Below, piece after piece: positions 4,458 through 13,858 of a stretch of 15,011 nt of DNA (position 1 is the stretch's first letter; every line of letters begins with the position of its first letter). The notes beneath the pieces were generated by a model that worked only from the letters and a program-made list of their open reading frames with translations, ran no database searches and had not been told where the DNA came from. The position numbers and the translations under genes are program-made. Source of the stretch: Nitrospirota bacterium (lineage in GTDB: Bacteria; Nitrospirota; Nitrospiria; Nitrospirales; UBA8639); the NCBI GenBank assembly GCA_029881175.1, contig JAOUNC010000018.1:1-15011 (forward strand). Direction: 5' to 3'.

Positions 4458-4567
4458 GGGAGTGTTGAATAATTGCGATTTCAAAGGGCGAATAGGCTGA
4501 GGGTCGTGTTGCACATCAAAGGTGGTGGGTCGGTTCAAAAAAGTCCATTCAGCAAGGCCCCGGCCTT

Positions 4568-4642
4568 TTTTGCGCGCGGAGCGTACTCATAGTACGTGAG
4601 CACGGAAAAATGGCGAGAACGCCGCTGACGGCTTTTTTCAAC
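4568..4642. repeat. Dispersed intergenic repeat, copy 1
   Basis: These 75 bases match 11305-11379 at about 64 of 75 positions by my count; the block GGCGAGAACGCCGCTG is identical. This copy contains a small perfect hairpin, CGTACT (4582-4587) with AGTACG (4591-4596). It fills most of the gap between the two permease genes. In both copies the wider element may begin further left at a TTCAAAAAAG motif (near 4535 here). It looks like a non-coding mobile or REP-type repeat. I see no role as a terminator. Confidence 0.75.
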
Positions 4643-6944: not shown

Positions 6945-7931
6945 ATGAATTCCACAACCTCCCCACTCCTCCAAGTCACCGGACTTAAAAAATACTTCCC
7001 TGTCCGCAGCGGGATTTTTTCGCGCGTGTCGGGATGGGTCAAGGCTGTCGATGATATTACGTTACAAATAAAGCACGGGGAAACATTGGGGCTGGTCGGT
7101 GAGTCGGGCTGTGGCAAAACAACGGTGGGACGCTCTATTCTCAGGCTGATGGAACCGACGGCTGGCGAAATTAAATTTGAGGGCGAAGATCTGCTGGCCC
7201 TCAAGCCTCGTGAGTTGCGACAGGCACGTCGGCGCATGCAAATCATCTTTCAAGATCCCTATAGTTCGCTCAATCCACGCATGACCATTGGATCTATTGT
7301 GTCGGAGCCGCTCAAAATTCATAAAATTGCCAAGGGTCAGGAATTACAGGATCGAGTCAATCAATTGTTTGTGAAAGTCGGCCTCAGGCCTGAACATCAG
7401 TCTCGGTATCCGCATGAGTTCTCCGGTGGACAACGGCAACGGGTAGGGATTGCGCGTGCACTGGCGCTCAATCCAAAATTTATTGTCTGCGATGAGGCGG
7501 TGTCGGCATTGGATGTTTCGATTCAAGCGCAAATCTTAAATTTGCTTCGTGACCTTCAGCAGGAATTTCATCTATCCTATCTCTTTATCACGCACGATCT
7601 GAATGTGGTCCAATATCTGGCCGACCGGATCGCTGTCATGTATTTGGGGCAATTGGCTGAAGTGGCCTCAACCGAAGATCTCTTTGCCACGCCAAAACAT
7701 CCCTATACGCAAGCGCTCTTGTCAGCCAACCCTGTGCCGGATCCGACCGCCGTGTCCCAACGAATGATCCTCTCCGGCGATGTCCCTTCGCCGTTACACC
7801 CACCAACCGGATGCCGGTTTCATCCCCGCTGTCCGCAAGTCATGGATGTCTGTAAAACAGCCGCTCCCCCACTGATTCAGATCGGCCCTCCAGAAGAAGG
7901 CCACCAAGTCTGGTGCCACTTGTATACTTAG
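6945..7931 (+). CDS. Dpp/Opp-type ABC transporter ATPase, second subunit (DppF-like)
   Basis: This 328-residue ATPase is the partner of the preceding one; the two should form the heterodimeric motor. Motifs: Walker A GESGCGKT at 52-59, Q-loop Q103 in [11 protein letters not shown], signature FSGGQRQR at 159-166, Walker [13 protein letters not shown] around D183/E184, and switch H217 in ITHDLN. The C-terminal oligopeptide domain ([17 protein letters not shown]) carries cysteines C290, C296, C303 and C324, again spaced like the iron-sulfur-type tail of this family. The start has no good ribosome site, but the N-terminus [19 protein letters not shown] is normal for the family. The last 90 bases (from ATG 7842) recur in decayed form at 8875-8976 and 10965-11030, which makes this the apparent parent copy of a triplicated 3' end. 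Confidence 0.95.
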
Positions 7932-8044
7932 GCAAATCCAGATGAACGGTCTCAGGTCGACTGACCATCCCATATGTACAAGAAAATTGACTGCATTATT
8001 CAGGCATTAGATGAAAATCGCTCAGTGACACCCTACATCAGGTT

Positions 8045-8107
8045 GTCATCCTGAGCGCATGGCGAAGGATCTGTGCCCAGGTACAGCAGCTATGGTTCAA
8101 CCTGGGC
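8045..8107. repeat. REP-like sequence followed by an inverted repeat
   Basis: GTCATCCTGAGC...CGAAGGATCTG at 8045-8073 has the look of a widespread REP-like palindrome. Directly after it, GCCCAGGT (8075-8082) pairs perfectly with ACCTGGGC (8100-8107) across a 17-base loop. A related GGCATCC...GAGGATGAC sequence, apparently in the opposite orientation, lies at 9095-9129, at the matching position downstream of the second ATPase-tail copy. Confidence 0.55.
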
Positions 8108-8221
8108 TCACTTCTTTTGTTCTGAATCGTGGCCAATAAAAGGTGTGCCAAGCTCAGCCCATTCGGAGACCCAGGGACTTATCCGTTTGCAGCGATAATG
8201 TAACTATGCCAATCGGTATAT

Positions 8222-8242
8222 CATGCCGCTGATTTCGGCATG
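8222..8242. promoter_or_regulatory. Hairpin/operator candidate upstream of TA pair
   Basis: CATGCCG (8222-8228) and CGGCATG (8236-8242) are perfect inverted arms around a 7-base centre, ending eight bases before the -35 box of a candidate promoter. TA operons are usually autorepressed through such palindromes, but the site lies about 120 bases before the antitoxin start, so operator function is only a suggestion. Confidence 0.35.
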
Positions 8243-8249
8243 GATAGCG

Positions 8250-8278
8250 TTGACAAGTTTATGATTCAAGACGACAAT
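8250..8278 (+). promoter_or_regulatory. Candidate sigma-70 promoter for the TA pair
   Basis: A consensus -35 box TTGACA (8250-8255) is followed, after exactly 17 bases, by GACAAT (8273-8278), which matches four of six -10 consensus bases. It would produce a leader of roughly 80 bases before the antitoxin ATG. Confidence 0.45.
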
Positions 8279-8362
8279 CAGAGAGGAATTTGGAGCTGGC
8301 CACGTACGTTGCGGCGGTCCGTAAGCGCAAAGGTGTTTGGACATTTCTAAACAGGAGTGAGT

Positions 8363-8548
8363 ATGTCAAATATTAAAGAGAAAATGACCGAAGTGATTCA
8401 GTCACAACCTGAAGATGCGACTTATGAGGAAATCATGCGCGAACTTGCCTTTGAGCGGATGATCGAACGAGGTCTCGTGGATTCTCGTAGCGGGCGCGTC
8501 GTATCCAACGAAGATATGGAACGCCGGATTCGCTCATGGCAGAAATAA
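8363..8548 (+). CDS. RelB-like type II antitoxin
   Basis: This 61-residue acidic, helix-rich protein begins MSNIKEKMTEVIQSQPEDAT and continues with YEEIMRELAFERMIERGL, a pattern common in short antitoxins paired with ParE/RelE toxins. Its role would be to bind and neutralise the toxin encoded next and to repress the operon. The ATG at 8363 is chosen because AGGAG lies five bases upstream. An in-frame GTG at 8357 overlaps that ribosome site and is less likely. The 3' end overlaps the toxin gene by 13 bases, typical of coupled TA pairs. The family call rests on size, position and residue pattern and is not motif-rich. Confidence 0.8.
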   Translation: MSNIKEKMTEVIQSQPEDATYEEIMRELAFERMIERGLVDSRSGRVVSNEDMERRIRSWQK

Positions 8549-8832
8549 GATGGACCGAAGAAGCTCACCGTTGGCTTCGTGACATCCACGATTACATAGC
8601 AGAGGATAATCGAGAAGCAGCTCAGAACGTGTTATCGGGAATTTATGAGAAAGTACAGTTGCTGCGGCGTTTTCCCGAAATCGGTCACAAGTATCGCACT
8701 GAGACAGATGGTGAAATCAGAATCTTACTCTACGGACATTATCGGATCGCATACCTTCTGAGATCTTCCACCAGTATTGACATTTTAGGTGTATTTCACG
8801 GAGCACTGGACATTAGCAGGTATCTTCCGTGA
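8536..8832 (+). CDS. ParE/RelE-family toxin of a type II TA system
   Basis: This 98-residue protein has the family layout: an opening strand EIRWTEEAHRWL, a long helical pair (LRDIHDYIAEDNREAAQNVL and IYEKVQLLRRFPEIGHKY), then the beta core GEIRILLYGHYRIAYLL, and the closing strand IDILGVFHGALDISRYL. The YIAEDN...AAQ, P-x-x-G-x-x and YRI.Y...I.IL.V.HGA pattern favours ParE-type members, which act on DNA gyrase, over ribosome-dependent RelE, but the target cannot be decided from sequence. The start overlaps the antitoxin end. The pair lies between the intact ATPase-gene tail and its first degenerate copy, so it may have arrived as a cassette. Confidence 0.87.
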   Translation: MAEIRWTEEAHRWLRDIHDYIAEDNREAAQNVLSGIYEKVQLLRRFPEIGHKYRTETDGEIRILLYGHYRIAYLLRSSTSIDILGVFHGALDISRYLP

Positions 8833-8874
8833 TTCAAGTGAATACCCTATTGGCCAACCTTCGTCGTTAGAGGG

Positions 8875-8976
8875 GGCGCTTCCTGTCCCGTATGCAAAAT
8901 AGTCGACCTTCCTTGCCTGATTCAGGTCGGCCCTGGAGAAAAAGACCATCTGGTCTGGTGCCACTTGTATGCTTAG
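8875..8976 (+). pseudogene. Decayed copy of the DppF-like ATPase 3' end
   Basis: Reading from 8875, the frame gives GASCPVCKIVDLPCLIQVG and then PGEKDHLVWCHLYA before TAG at 8974-8976. The intact ATPase ends [20 protein letters not shown] then QVWCHLYT. From CTG ATT to the stop, 51 of 60 bases agree by my count, and similarity continues past the stop (TTAGGCAAA..CCAGATGAACG) well into non-coding sequence. There is no start codon or rest of the gene, so this is a fragment left by duplication. It lies directly downstream of the TA pair. Confidence 0.85.
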
Positions 8977-9309
8977 GCAAAAGCCAGATGAACGTTCTCT
9001 GAACGGTTAAATCACTCCGATGTGTCAGGAAATTGATTCCACAATTTCGACATTGAATGAATACGTGATGATTCTGTGAAGACCTCACCAAGTTGGCATC
9101 CTTTGCCTTGAGCTGAGGATGACAATCTGGGTAGGGTCTCACCGAGGTATCCCGTATTCGTTCAATTCCTGAACCGTAAAATCTCTTTTTTACAAAATAT
9201 CCTTCAGCTTTCATTTTCATTGAAAACAGCACATGTGTATTCATCGTACGTCCATCTTTTTATCTTATAGGGGCCTAATGCGATATAATGACAAAGAGGT
9301 TAAGTTTTT
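8977..9309. other. Spacer downstream of the tail copy, leader of decarboxylase gene
   Basis: About the first 150 bases resemble the sequence following the intact ATPase gene, including a GGCATCC...GAGGATGAC repeat at 9095-9129 that looks inverted relative to its counterpart at 8045-8073. The rest leads into the decarboxylase gene. I see no gene on either strand. Confidence 0.55.
9284..9289 (+). promoter_or_regulatory. Possible -10 box before the decarboxylase gene
   Basis: A perfect TATAAT lies 20 bases before the ATG, but no good -35 box is 16-18 bases upstream. The expected transcription start would fall almost on the AGAGG ribosome site (9295-9299), so this may be chance. Confidence 0.25.
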
Positions 9310-10965
9310 ATGAATCCCCCCTATACCATTGGCACTCTCCTTCTGGACCGCTTGTACAAGCTGGGGCTGCATCATATTTTCGGCATCCCCGGCGATTATG
9401 TGCTGACGTTCTATAAGCTTCTCGAAGAATCCCCTATCCAGCATATCGGGACCACTCGCGAAGATTGCGCAGGTTTTGCATCGGATGCCTATGCCCGCAT
9501 TCATGGGATTGGTGGCGCATGCGTGACCTATTGCGTGGGTGGTCTGAACATGGTCAATGCCATTGCCTGCGCCTATGCTGAGCGATCACCAGTCGTGGTC
9601 ATTTCCGGATCTCCCGGGCTGACCGAACGAGTGAATGATCCCTTTCTGCATCATATGGTGCGTGATTTCTCCACTCAACGCGATGTGTTTGAAAAAATTA
9701 CCGTGGCCTCCGTGATTTTGGATGACCCTCATACTGCCGAACGGGAGATTGATCGAGCCTTGAAGGCATTGATGCAATTTAAGCGACCGATCTATTTGGA
9801 AATACCACGAGATCTCGTACTGACTCCTGTGCAAGTGGCCTCAACGGAACCACCCCAAGAAACTGTCTGCCAAAGTGATCCAGCGGCCCTCAAAGAAGCC
9901 GTTGCAGAAGTGCGTGCCATTCTGTCAGATTCAGAACGTCCGGTTATTTTGGCTGGCGCAGAAATTCACCGGTTCGGTCTTCAGGATGAATTAACCGAAC
10001 TGGTCGAGCATATGAACGTCCCCATCGCAACGACCTTGTTGGGGAAGTCGGTCATCCGCGAAGATCATCCTTTGTATATTGGCGTGTATGGGGGATTGGT
10101 GGGGCGAGAAGAAATTTTAGAGTTTGTGGAGAACGCCGACTGCCTGCTGATCTTAGGGACCTTGCTCACTGATGTCGAAGACGTCAAAGCGCATACCATG
10201 CTCCTGTCCGCAGGCCGCACCGTTCATGCGACGGCAGACTCCCTTGCCATCAAGCATCATACCTATGAAGACGTGCGCTTTGAAGATTTTATCCGGGCCT
10301 TGGCGGCGTCGCCCTTGTCGTCATTTCCTGCGCGGGCGCTTCCTCCTCGTGACAGCGTTCGATTTGATCCACCTGGACCGGAAGCGGCCGTGACCCTTCG
10401 TAATGTGTTCGGGTATTTGGATGGTTTGCTGAATGACAAGACGGTGGTGATCGCTGATGTCGGGGAATCGCTGTTTGCCGCTGCTGATTTGCGGGTACGG
10501 AAAAGCGCGGAGTTTTTGTCTCCGGCCTATTACACGTCCATGGGATTCAGCGTCCCGGCCGCTCTTGGTGCCGGATTTGCCGATCCTACCCTCAGGCCTC
10601 TGGTGTTGGTAGGTGATGGAGCATTTCAAATGACGGGCACAGAATTGTCCACGTGCATTTGCTATGGGCAGGCCCCCATCATCGTGGTGCTGAATAACCA
10701 CGGCTATGGGACGGAACGGGAAATTCTCGAAGGCCCTTTCAATGACATCCATGAATGGCAGTATGAAAAAGTCTGCGACTTGTTGGGAGGAGGCGTGGGA
10801 CATCGGGTGGGGACATTTGGAGAATTAGTCCAGGCCCTGAATTCCGCCGTTGATGATGTTAAGCACGTACATGTGCTAAATGTCCTACTTGACCCAAGTG
10901 ATCGTTCCACCGCCATGAAGCGGGTCGCCCGGCGACTGGCGAAACGGATGGCAGGGCAAAAGTAA
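9310..10965 (+). CDS. Thiamine-diphosphate 2-oxo-acid decarboxylase (pyruvate/indolepyruvate decarboxylase type)
   Basis: This 551-residue cytoplasmic enzyme should remove CO2 from a 2-oxo acid, giving an aldehyde. The N-terminal ThDP-binding domain has GIPGDY (25-30) and the cofactor-activating glutamate E51 in TTREDCAGF. The adjacent histidines H114/H115 (PFLHHMVRDF) are the catalytic pair seen in pyruvate and indolepyruvate decarboxylases and separate it from acetolactate synthase. The middle domain begins near residue 185. The C-terminal ThDP motif runs GDGAFQMT (435-442) to LNN (461-463), and E469 in GYGTER matches the second catalytic acid of the family. Substrate could be pyruvate, a branched-chain or an aromatic 2-oxo acid; this is not decidable here. 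AGAGG precedes the ATG by ten bases. The stop codon TAA overlaps the start of an ATPase-tail fragment (TAATG). Confidence 0.92.
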   Translation: MNPPYTIGTLLLDRLYKLGLHHIFGIPGDYVLTFYKLLEESPIQHIGTTREDCAGFASDAYARIHGIGGACVTYCVGGLNMVNAIACAYAERSPVVVISGSPGLTERVNDPFLHHMVRDFSTQRDVFEKITVASVILDDPHTAEREIDRALKALMQFKRPIYLEIPRDLVLTPVQVASTEPPQETVCQSDPAALKEAVAEVRAILSDSERPVILAGAEIHRFGLQDELTELVEHMNVPIATTLLGKSVIREDHPLYIGVYGGLVGREEILEFVENADCLLILGTLLTDVEDVKAHTMLLSAGRTVHATADSLAIKHHTYEDVRFEDFIRALAASPLSSFPARALPPRDSVRFDPPGPEAAVTLRNVFGYLDGLLNDKTVVIADVGESLFAAADLRVRKSAEFLSPAYYTSMGFSVPAALGAGFADPTLRPLVLVGDGAFQMTGTELSTCICYGQAPIIVVLNNHGYGTEREILEGPFNDIHEWQYEKVCDLLGGGVGHRVGTFGELVQALNSAVDDVKHVHVLNVLLDPSDRSTAMKRVARRLAKRMAGQK

Positions 10966-11057
10966 TGGATGTTTGTAAAACTACCGATTCTCCTTTAATC
11001 CCAATCGGCTCTCTCGAAAAAGGCCACATGAGTGAGCCGTTCCCCATTGCTGATTGA
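10965..11057 (+). pseudogene. Second decayed copy of the DppF-like ATPase 3' end
   Basis: From the ATG overlapping the decarboxylase stop, a 30-codon frame begins MDVCKTTDSPLIPIGSLEKG and continues HM before diverging, ending at TGA 11055-11057. The intact ATPase tail reads [20 protein letters not shown] then H. About 14 of 21 residues agree over 10965-11027, after which similarity fades; the family's Trp-Cys-His ending is absent. The match seems to reach a few bases upstream, through the decarboxylase stop (GCAAAAGTAATGGATG against GCAAGTCATGGATG). I read it as a remnant of the same duplicated gene end, although translation as a small coupled peptide cannot be excluded. Confidence 0.75.
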
Positions 11058-11242
11058 AAAGAAACCGATAATGGCGTATGTTTGAGGTAATCAATAACAT
11101 GTGCTTTGGACAGACTCTCATTGGTTTGTCCCATAGGATGTTTACAGAGTGCTCATCAAAAACAGTCTAGTTATGATAAGGTGGGAGGAATGAAAATATG
11201 ACCATAAATGCCGAGGCTTCGGGGCGTTTCAAAAAAGCATGC

Positions 11243-11379
11243 CCTGAGTTTCTTCGAAGGGTTCGTCCTGTCCTGAGCTTTGCCGAAGGGAAGGCCGCAG
11301 CCAGTTTTGCGCGGAGAGCGTCCTTCCACTACGTGAGCAGGGAAAACTGGCGAGAACGCCGCTGGCGGCTCTTTTCAAC
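11243..11379. repeat. Dispersed repeat copy 2 with nested direct repeats
   Basis: The segment 11305-11379 is the second copy of the element at 4568-4642. Just upstream are two 19-base direct repeats, 11243-11261 and 11272-11290, both of form CCTGAG...CGAAGGG and matching at 15 of 19 bases. They resemble the CCTGAG/CGAAGG repeats found dispersed in many bacteria. A TTCAAAAAAG motif near 11228 matches the one near 4535, so the CCTGAG unit may have inserted inside the longer element. Confidence 0.7.
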
Positions 11380-11445
11380 TGCCCCTTATGCATTATAAAT
11401 CGACGTCGGATGAAATTCCTGTCCTCACAGTAGCGTATTTACACC

Positions 11446-11468
11446 AGAGGCCCGATTACTGGGCCTCT
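11446..11468. repeat. GC-rich inverted repeat
   Basis: AGAGGCCC (11446-11453) and GGGCCTCT (11461-11468) are perfect complements around a 7-base loop. No U-tract follows on the plus strand, so an intrinsic terminator is possible only in a weak form. Confidence 0.5.
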
Positions 11469-11717
11469 TGGAAACAGTAAATAGGTATCCTGCTTCATCA
11501 TCTTTTTTAATTGCCCCTCCCTAGAGTCCTCTGATCTCATCGGAGCCACCAAATCTGGTTTAATTTGCCTAGGTAATCGCTAATAGCTTTACCAACGATA
11601 TCCTGAATTCCTGGTTGCCTTACCCCCCCTTGAGGTAGATTCATCGGTCTTACGGATAAAGTCTAACGCCAGGGATGGGTGTCGCAAAGTCCAGCATTGT
11701 TAGAAAGGAAGCCTGCT

Positions 11718-12389
11718 ATGAAACGTGTCTCTCTCTTGTGTGGAGCCGTGGCCTTGTTGGTGGCCATGACCGCGCCGTCCGCCTGGGCGCTCTCCATTAC
11801 CAAAACTAACAACACCTTCGGGTCCGTGGATAATAGTTCCGACACCAGAACGGTCGACATTGCTGCCGGTGATATCACCATGGGGACGGGAACGATCCTC
11901 AGTGTGACGGCCACATTGGACTTCTCTAAATGTAACGACACTGCCACAGCCAGTGGTTGTAGTGGTACAGGGGGTGGCACAATTCCTTTCTCAAATGAAA
12001 TTGCTTTTGCACTCACCAGTCCGACTGGGACGACGGTAAATTTGGTGACTGCCGGCACGTTTACTTTTGGGAGTGGGGAATATCGGGCGGAAATAACCTT
12101 CGATGATTTGGCGGTTTCCGCTCTTCCAGCGAACCCAACCAATGGGACCTTCCAACTGGTCGGGACCTTGGGGAGTTTTGCCGGGGAGAATGCGGTGGGC
12201 ACGTAGTCCCTGGCATTTTCAGACAATGCAGACGGCGATCCTTTGGGTCTACATAGTTTTTCTTTGACAGTAGAGACCGACATGCCCACCCAGCCTCCGG
12301 CCGTCCCGGAACCAGGCACAATTCTTTTGTTTGGCACCGGCCTAGCCGGTCTGGCCGCCTGGCGGTACAAGAACCACAAGGCTGCCTAA
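11718..12389 (+). pseudogene. PEP-CTERM protein with P-domain-like region, split by in-frame TAG
   Basis: The ATG at 11718 follows AAAGGAAG by about seven bases. It opens with a Sec signal peptide (basic MKR, a hydrophobic core, then PSAWA with cleavage probable before LSITKT). The exported body includes FALTSPTGTTVNLV and ends its upstream part GSFAGENAVGT at codon 162. Codon 163 is TAG (12204-12206). The same frame stays open after it: SLAFSDNADGDPLGLHSFSL, then the PEP-CTERM signal VPEPG (196-200), a hydrophobic segment LLFGTGLAGLAAW, basic RYKNHK and TAA at 12387-12389. The GT-W-SL..SDNA.GD...L.S.SLT pattern fits the end of proprotein-convertase P-type beta domains, where Trp (TGG) normally follows Gly-Thr, so a single G-to-A change explains the stop. 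As written, the product would be secreted but not sorted or anchored. Sequencing error or stop readthrough are alternatives. Confidence 0.85.
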
Positions 12390-12421
12390 ACTTTGTCAGA
12401 TTGCGGCGAGTGAATCTTCCT

Positions 12422-12456
12422 AAAAAGCCTGGCTCTGAAAAGAGCCAGGCTTTTTT
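12422..12456 (+). terminator. Strong intrinsic terminator after the PEP-CTERM gene
   Basis: AGCCTGGCTCT (12426-12436) and AGAGCCAGGCT (12441-12451) form a perfect 11-bp stem with a GAAA tetraloop, extended by A-tract/T-tract pairing and followed by a run of T. It lies 36 bases after the TAA at 12387-12389, not near the internal TAG, which supports the longer frame being the original gene. Confidence 0.92.
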
Positions 12457-12511
12457 GTGTTCTTACTTTTCACTTCTCACATTTCTCTTTTAACCCTCTT
12501 CTGTTGGTTGG

Positions 12512-12541
12512 TTGCGGGCATGCTGAACTGGCCCGTATAAT
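12512..12541 (+). promoter_or_regulatory. Candidate promoter of the MEMO-family gene
   Basis: TATAAT at 12536-12541 is a perfect -10 box; TTGCGG at 12512-12517 is a weak -35 at 18-base spacing. It lies after the terminator and about 50 bases before the ATG at 12590, the right place for an independent promoter. Confidence 0.42.
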
Positions 12542-12589
12542 GGCTGTTTTTGAGGCATCATTCTTTATTTTTCAAGATTGGATTCCCCT

Positions 12590-13858
12590 ATGAGTACTGA
12601 GACTGTGGAAAAAGATTCGAAAAATTACCCGATTCTTCGGAATTTGCAATATTCGCCATTAAAGCAGGGGGATGAGCAATACATTGTGTTGTGGGATCCG
12701 ACTGGTTTGTCGGCGGAAAAGCTGGTCCTGCCGCTCAATTATTTCTGGCTGTTTCAGTTTTTTGATGGAGAGCATTCGTTAGAGCAGCTCGGTGGGGAAT
12801 ACCTGAAAAAGTATGGGGAATTCATGATGCCGGATCAGCTCACCAAATTGGTGGCCGATCTGGAGGAAAAATTGTTTTTGGAAGGCGATCGCCTGAAGCA
12901 AGTCCAGAAGCAAGCTTTTGAAGCCTATCGTAAGCTTGAGGTGAGGCCGATGGCGTTTGCCGGGAAACAATATGAAGCAGATCCCGTGAAATTGCGTGAG
13001 CAGATTGACGGGTTTTATGCCTCGAAGGAAGGGCCCGAGCAGGGCAAGGCCGAATGTGCCGGTCAGATAATTAAAGGTCTGGTGGCTCCAAATTTTGACA
13101 TCAAGGATGCCGGACCCATTTACGCCTGGGGCTATCAGGAGTTGCAGGAAGGCCAGGTCCCCGATGTGTTTGTGTTGATTGGGACGTGCCATGCGGGTCT
13201 TGAAGGCGGTATTGCGTTGACGGATAAAGATTTTGAAACGCCGTTTGGGACGGTTCCGGTGAATCGAGCGATTATTGATGCGATTCGTCAAGAAGCGGGT
13301 GAGACGTTTTTTGCTGAAGATATTTCTCATCTTCGGGAGCACAGCCTGGAATTGCAATTGCCGTTTCTCCAGCATGCGCTGGGTGAGGGGCGTGAGATTT
13401 CCATTGTGCCGATTTTGGTCGACTTTCCTCCGGACACACTGACGGGTGGAGAGTTTCAACAGCTCTTTCATCGAATCGATCAATTTTTGACGATCACCAA
13501 ACGTGCGATTCAAGCCAGTGGCCAACAGGTGTGCGTCATTGGCAGCGCCGATCTGGCGCATATCGGCATTCGGTACGGCGATCAAAAGCCACCCACCGAT
13601 TTTTCATTCCATCGCTGTATGCAGACTGATTTGGAGATGCTGAAAAAAGTTGAAGAGGCTGATCCGGAAGGCTTTGCGGAGTTTATTTTGAAAGAAGGCA
13701 ATCAGCGACGAATTTTAGGATTTTCGGTAATTTTTACCTTAATGAAACTGTTGCAACGCGATAGTGAGCCACTGAAGGGGCAAGTGTTACGTTATGATCG
13801 CGGCATTACGGATCAGTTCAATTCGACTGTGACGTATGCCAGTATTGCGTTTGTCTAA
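12590..13858 (+). CDS. MEMO-family protein (AmmeMemoRadiSam system protein B-like) with N-terminal PqqD-like domain
   Basis: This 422-residue protein has two parts. Residues 1-105 resemble the small PqqD-like winged fold found with radical-SAM peptide systems (YIVLWDPTGLSAEKLVLP, FFDGEHSLEQL, then a helical stretch). Residues about 120-422 form a MEMO domain: GTCHAG with H201, EHSLELQLPFLQ with H251, and GSADLAHIG with D321 and H324. In human MEMO1 the corresponding last motif carries a metal-binding Cys; here that place is Ala (A323), so metal binding may differ. The biochemical role of bacterial MEMO proteins is unsettled; they often occur with AMMECR1 and radical-SAM genes, neither of which is in this window. 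ATG 12590 is preferred over an in-frame TTG at 12578; neither has a clear ribosome site. The PqqD-like assignment is tentative. Confidence 0.85.
   Translation: MSTETVEKDSKNYPILRNLQYSPLKQGDEQYIVLWDPTGLSAEKLVLPLNYFWLFQFFDGEHSLEQLGGEYLKKYGEFMMPDQLTKLVADLEEKLFLEGDRLKQVQKQAFEAYRKLEVRPMAFAGKQYEADPVKLREQIDGFYASKEGPEQGKAECAGQIIKGLVAPNFDIKDAGPIYAWGYQELQEGQVPDVFVLIGTCHAGLEGGIALTDKDFETPFGTVPVNRAIIDAIRQEAGETFFAEDISHLREHSLELQLPFLQHALGEGREISIVPILVDFPPDTLTGGEFQQLFHRIDQFLTITKRAIQASGQQVCVIGSADLAHIGIRYGDQKPPTDFSFHRCMQTDLEMLKKVEEADPEGFAEFILKEGNQRRILGFSVIFTLMKLLQRDSEPLKGQVLRYDRGITDQFNSTVTYASIAFV

Follow-up and report, generated by a model that had tools for sequence, protein, structure and literature searches.

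According to the proposal outlined for the cdiA/rhs loci, incoming DNA inserts within a gene and pushes the former 3' end downstream, where it stays as a fossil; when this happens repeatedly, a row of such ends builds up (PMC4927057). Chromosomal hotspots devoid of mobile elements have been described that are diversified by homologous recombination in the flanking core genes (PMC5635113). In homology-facilitated illegitimate recombination, as characterized in transformation experiments with other bacteria, homology anchors the DNA in a RecA-dependent manner, and the join is made at another point across a few bases (PMC6382021). Here we describe a locus that shares features with all three, in a stretch of 15,011 nucleotides (the window) from a Nitrospirota bacterium (assembly GCA_029881175.1, contig JAOUNC010000018.1, here C73). 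Its genes encode, in order, a solute-binding protein, DppB, DppC, DppD, the dppF-like ATP-binding cassette (ABC) transporter ATPase, a small open reading frame (ORF) with a ParE-like toxin, a 2-oxoacid decarboxylase (DC), a small protein, and a Memo-like protein. Downstream of the intact gene, the 3' end of dppF is found twice more in degenerate form, once behind parE and once at the end of the DC gene. To the reading that these copies are scars left when one-sided joins were made into the 3' end of dppF, by host recombination at a hotspot that apparently has no dedicated recombinase, we give somewhat better than even chances.

The intact dppF occupies positions 6945 to 7931 of the plus strand (328 aa; PF00005, 5.1e-33; PF08352, 6.9e-19), and its last ~100 bases constitute copy 1. 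The sequence-only reading correctly named this gene as the source of the tails; the ATG at 7842, where it placed the start, is internal. Copy 2 (8890-9090, plus strand) consists of a degenerate dppF tail, up to 8976, and of 3' untranslated region (UTR). It is identical to copy 1 at 71/82 bases (8917-8999), with the similarity running on into the 3' UTR, and it is matched by the tail hidden Markov model (HMM) at 8890-8975 (E=1.5e-13) and by the UTR HMM, the training set of which included the copy 1 UTR, at 8978-9090 (E=1.7e-12). Copy 3 (10957-11027, plus strand) covers the dppF tail from about -98 to -27, is identical to copy 1 at 51/68 bases (10960-11027), and is matched by the tail HMM at 10957-11027 (E=1.6e-12); its homology begins within the last two DC codons and stops 27 bases short of the dppF stop. 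The tail HMM was trained on 17 dppF genes, including the intact gene of the window and leaving out copies 2 and 3. The Smith-Waterman scores of the two copies, 103 and 51, compare with a best score of 30 among 200 mononucleotide shuffles of the 4.6-kb stretch. Among nine gene ends of the window tested for recurrence, only that of dppF recurs, the score of 47 for the DC end being due to its overlap with copy 3. Thus, the repetition after accessory genes that the sequence-only reading reported is real, and chance or convergent C-termini, its stated alternative, were rejected by the shuffle, HMM, and gene-end tests. A genome-wide DNA search of the assembly (3.07 Mb in 509 contigs, 82% complete) recovered copy 2, all remaining matches having E>=2; copy 3 is below the sensitivity of this search.

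Relatives were searched in 20 genomes of the genus and 48 genomes of the family (the 20 included), and 46 stretches were compared together with the CAKZPV locus (L090). The arrangement around copy 2 is found in four species: in the window, G009, G016, and G019, ParE (in the window 8536-8832, plus strand; PF05016, 1.8e-14), a spacer (8833-8889, plus strand), and the dppF tail occur together. The spacer matches in G009 (1e-16), G016 (1.9e-12; both were training rows), and G019 (7.1e-6), and it shows no resemblance to dppF beyond chance. The tail behind ParE is detected in G009 (7.8e-6), G016 (3.8e-19), and G019 (7.3e-4), none of which were training rows; the tails of G009 and G019 are strongly diverged. 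Since the toxin, spacer, and tail co-occur in three other species, copy 2 is old and did not arise by a recent local event. The simplest reading is that the join between ParE and the tail happened once, and that the block was then inherited or passed on. The window's copy 2 tail resembles the dppF of its own clade (with G004, support 95/76 and 86/75 in two trees, not starred), which suggests a later exchange between copies; a grouping of copy 2 with the G016 tail is not rejected by the approximately unbiased test (p-AU 0.36 and 0.24).

The join at the DC gene (9310-10965, plus strand; PF02775/02776/00205, indolepyruvate-type by its homologues, from which the name is taken) has a different distribution. 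Copy 3 occurs only in the window genome among the loci examined, and no dppF tail stands behind DC at the 14 other DC 3' ends compared. The window switches from DC to dppF-like sequence in a short stretch common to both (GCAA..AGT), and the DC stop codon sits in dppF-like sequence. In 11 of the 14 other genes, DC is one residue longer than in the window. Among homologous DC proteins, of which 575 were found, 120 listed, and 80 compared, most end one residue later and three at the window's residue, the DNA behind these three not having been seen. In two tree builds, copy 3 was placed differently, near or within the clade of the window and never next to copy 1. These distributions lend no support to the view, drawn from the sequence-only reading, that two insertions occurred in the window genome, one per copy: the toxin-tail arrangement is present in four species, and the 14 other DC ends have no tail. 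Behind copy 3, ~1.5 kb of sequence includes a small unassigned protein, of which a homologue (71%) stands near Memo in G012 (L171).

The Memo-like gene (12578-13858, plus strand; PF01875, 1.5e-38) directly follows dppF on the right in several relatives. The two genes are neighbours both within and outside the genus: they are <400 bp apart in nine (from four genera) of the 18 non-genus genomes that carry both on one contig, and dppF directly precedes Memo in G014 and G017 of the window's genus. DC was detected in four of the nine (G040, G042, G046, and G047), far removed or on a different contig. The loci with DC between dppF and Memo are those of the window, G001, G002, G005 (two contigs), G009, G019, G038 (another genus), and the CAKZPV locus; in G006, G007, G008, and G016, DC or a part of it precedes Memo on a contig without dppF. 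The dppF-DC interval is 60 bp in G013, ~210 bp in CAKZPV, and ~280 bp in G005:C134, and it extends over 1.4-4.7 kb in the window, G001, G002, two other G005 contigs, G009, G010, G019 (the longest, 4.7 kb), and G038. As judged from these gene orders, the region after dppF is an accessory-gene hotspot, with variable cargo between conserved neighbours. This part of the sequence-only reading, including the notion that tail fragments mark junctions with unrelated genes, can be retained; the attachment site that it also envisaged is considered below. The DC of the window is 90-92% identical to that of a second clade of the genus, and dppF 84-88%, which is why a recent transfer from that clade was considered; this was dropped, as the DC tree sets the window outside that clade, next to CAKZPV, a clade-A relative (SH-aLRT 83).

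The cargo differs between relatives. ParE and its partner are found in the window and G009, and also in G008, with ParE cut short; ParE stands at a contig end in G016, and G019 has a disrupted ParE without a recognised partner. Other cargoes include DUF2442 and a HEPN match below cut-off in G006, an AbiU2-type HEPN protein in G010, an addiction-module component and a nucleotidyltransferase in G008:C474, and DUF4258 with DUF2283 in G008:C152. In the window, the small ORF before ParE (8363-8548, plus strand) has no Pfam match and is a putative antitoxin by its position; it has a homologue before ParE in G009 and G008. Pfam gave no match for 12 of the 19 cargo proteins of relatives scanned. The dppF gene is present once in 13 of the 14 genus genomes with a match at E<=1e-130; G005, a fragmented bin, has three matches on separate contigs, and in G008 an additional fragment of dppF stands at the start of a contig (L074). 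Decay of three whole ATPase genes, the refutation that the sequence-only reading foresaw, thus finds no support. The three G005 contigs (L059, L060, and L061) each carry dppF and DC with three different intervals, reflecting either a mixed bin or repeated loci. In the CAKZPV locus, a different long gene stands between DC and Memo (L090:7660-9500), so that the DC-Memo interval is variable too. A DC fragment from residue ~418 precedes Memo in L078 (G008:C229); the duplicated DC end there was not used, because the 77-base exact match lies at a contig start and is possibly an assembly overlap.

The left flank is similar in most loci: among 12 stretches compared, dppF is mostly followed by its UTR, a repetitive extragenic palindromic (REP)-like repeat, a box of ~40 bases, and the cargo. 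In the window, the UTR of copy 1 (7932-8039, plus strand; nhmmer 8.7e-18 with its own UTR in the training set, and blastn to relatives) is homologous to the UTRs of the genus. The left copy of the REP-like repeat, TCATCCTGAGC...GAAGGATCTG (8039-8082, plus strand), belongs to a dispersed family with many matches, among those listed, across most of the 15/20 genus genomes with any match. It recurs in inverted orientation on the other side of the toxin pair (9098-9129); we do not read the two as transposon ends, as the repeat is dispersed in most genus genomes. The inverted copy is part of a segment upstream of DC (9098-9195, minus strand) that also contains a part of the dppF UTR (UTR HMM, 1.1e-7; 57/70 identical; score 55 vs 28 in shuffles). 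Such an inverted partial UTR precedes DC in several other loci as well, and, in a count of 10 loci that set apart the compact G005:C134, its match exceeds shuffles in seven (G019 narrowly), the others being G002, G009, and G013. A palindrome at G005:C134 was dropped as a landing place, its self-match not exceeding shuffles and its fold z-score being -0.52.

The conserved box (8245-8293, plus strand) contains promoter-like hexamers, TTGACA at 8250 and, after 17 nt, GACAAT to 8278, and it precedes different accessory genes in relatives. Its pattern (<=3 mismatches) is found in 9/20 genus genomes at 11 sites, nine of them at the dppF locus and two elsewhere (G006:C149:43081 and G008:C177:463); the reversed pattern, used as a control, has no match in the genus genomes. 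No match of the pattern was obtained in G019, G005:C454, G007, G018, and the compact loci G005:C134 and G013. Taken by themselves, the hexamers carry no weight as evidence, since one promoter-like match was found vs 2.4 expected in shuffles. In G006, the UTR-REP-box block stands twice, before two different cargoes, and in G016, tail, UTR, REP, and box follow ParE and precede another cargo.

Some further features of the window were recorded. The small protein behind copy 3 (11679-12206) has no Pfam match and a signal-like start, and it is followed by a frame that, from its sequence, has a PEP-CTERM-like tail. A direct repeat of 89 bases (83% identical) lies at 4554-4642 and 11291-11379, both intergenic, and matches to its second copy also stand just after Memo in G005:C454 and G019. 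PADLOC on 10 window proteins gave one weak match (Csx1, 0.0036), Rfam on 7800-12600 gave five matches, none near gathering score, and ARAGORN found no tRNA.

An intact gene end, cargo, and an interior fragment of the same gene end form a pattern expected from either one-sided recombination or tandem duplication. Under one-sided recombination, host recombination would rely on dppF homology at one end and form an illegitimate or microhomology join at the opposite end, so that the far end of the cargo (ParE and its spacer, or DC) would be fused inside the dppF 3' end, with the intact end kept upstream. The agent would be RecA-type recombination, and other cells may be the source of the cargo; the hotspot apparently operates without a dedicated recombinase. 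Several observations weigh against this reading. No donor or intermediate allele was seen among the relatives, and the DC tree gives no sign that DC arrived recently from the second clade. Three of the 14 DC genes (G019, G046, and G047) end one residue before that of the window, so that DC length alone says little, and the microhomology at the DC join is a few shared bases only, with the parental alleles not seen. Copy 3 comes from one contig of one fragmented assembly; the tail fragments are not long enough to give a firm tree, as the movement of copy 3 between builds indicates, and holding copies 1, 2, and 3 together is not rejected (p-AU 0.18). The main rival is tandem duplication of a 3' segment rather than of whole ATPase genes, in which a segment from inside the dppF 3' end to the cargo would be duplicated in place and the second unit eroded or re-filled, so that tail fragments would stay behind the cargo. 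This would give identical joins without outside DNA, and the repetition of the UTR-REP-box module between different cargoes in G006 and G016 would fit it. However, neither a second UTR nor a second box was found after copy 3, nor were the toxin or DC genes seen there as direct repeats, and in the best trees copy 3 is not next to copy 1, although holding the two together is not rejected (p-AU 0.25). We regard tandem duplication as possible, though rather unlikely.

Classically, site-specific integration regenerates a gene 3' end upstream and leaves the old end displaced on the downstream side. The dppF locus shares this picture, together with short accessory-gene cargoes and two joins within the last 100 bases of dppF, as would be left by an integrase since lost. 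The joins, however, do not meet dppF at one common point: they lie about 82 (ParE block) and about 98 (DC) bases before the stop, the latter abutting coding sequence directly. Besides ParE and the window's DC, no other cargo was found to be followed by a tail. Pfam recognised no integrase in the 10 window genes scanned or in 22 ORFs of relatives, a sample that did not include every interval ORF and in which the only recombinase recognised is an IS110-type transposase in the G009 interval. The differing joins, the direct join to DC, and the failure to recognise a recombinase speak against a dedicated attachment site, and we consider integration at such a site, as the sequence-only reading had suggested, very improbable. 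We attach equally little probability to the tail and UTR being kept as a functional 3' end (a terminator or an RNA-stabilising segment) for the toxin operon: the persistence of the toxin-tail block in four species and the UTR with hairpin-like repeats kept in the window would agree with it, but the G009 and G019 tails have diverged strongly, no Rfam match reaches gathering score, and the terminator-like match at copy 2 lies on the minus strand. Somewhat less remote, though still doubtful, is a reusable landing module of dppF tail, UTR, REP-like repeat, and box, in which small gene sets would be added or swapped behind one fixed promoter by homologous recombination between module copies, in an integron-like manner without an integrase; against it, the box pattern was not matched in G019, where the interval is longest.

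If one-sided joining by host recombination is correct, the locus would be a readable fossil record of how small toxin-antitoxin and HEPN-type genes entered a single chromosomal site of marine-type nitrite oxidisers and spread there, with no recognised mobile-element enzyme involved. Displaced gene ends could then help to spot integrase-free hotspots elsewhere.

Integron gene cassettes place different small cargoes at a fixed site behind a promoter, using an integron integrase and attC sites. The dppF locus resembles them in having different small cargoes at a fixed place, downstream of one conserved promoter-like box; unlike in integrons, the repeats are gene-end and UTR sequence, and no integron integrase was recognised among the interval ORFs scanned with Pfam, no dedicated attC model search having been made. 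As in the orphan ends described for cdiA/rhs loci, a displaced 3' end is left downstream of the anchor gene. In that account, however, the displaced ends encode toxin/immunity modules, the anchor product changes, and transposase or integrase genes are often nearby, whereas in the dppF locus a transporter ATPase serves as the anchor, and what was displaced is a tail fragment of under 30 codons. With the mobile-element-free hotspots, as described, the locus shares the turnover of accessory genes at one place between conserved genes and the lack of recognised integrases; unlike there, where double recombination, with an exchange in each flank, would not be expected to duplicate a gene end, the duplicated dppF ends point to an illegitimate join on one side. 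Illegitimate joins are also made in homology-facilitated illegitimate recombination, although, unlike the experiments outlined for that process, the dppF locus offers a footprint only, with the recipient's tail kept. By these analogies, the dppF locus would work like a mixture of orphan-end loci, mobile-element-free hotspots, and homology-facilitated illegitimate recombination.

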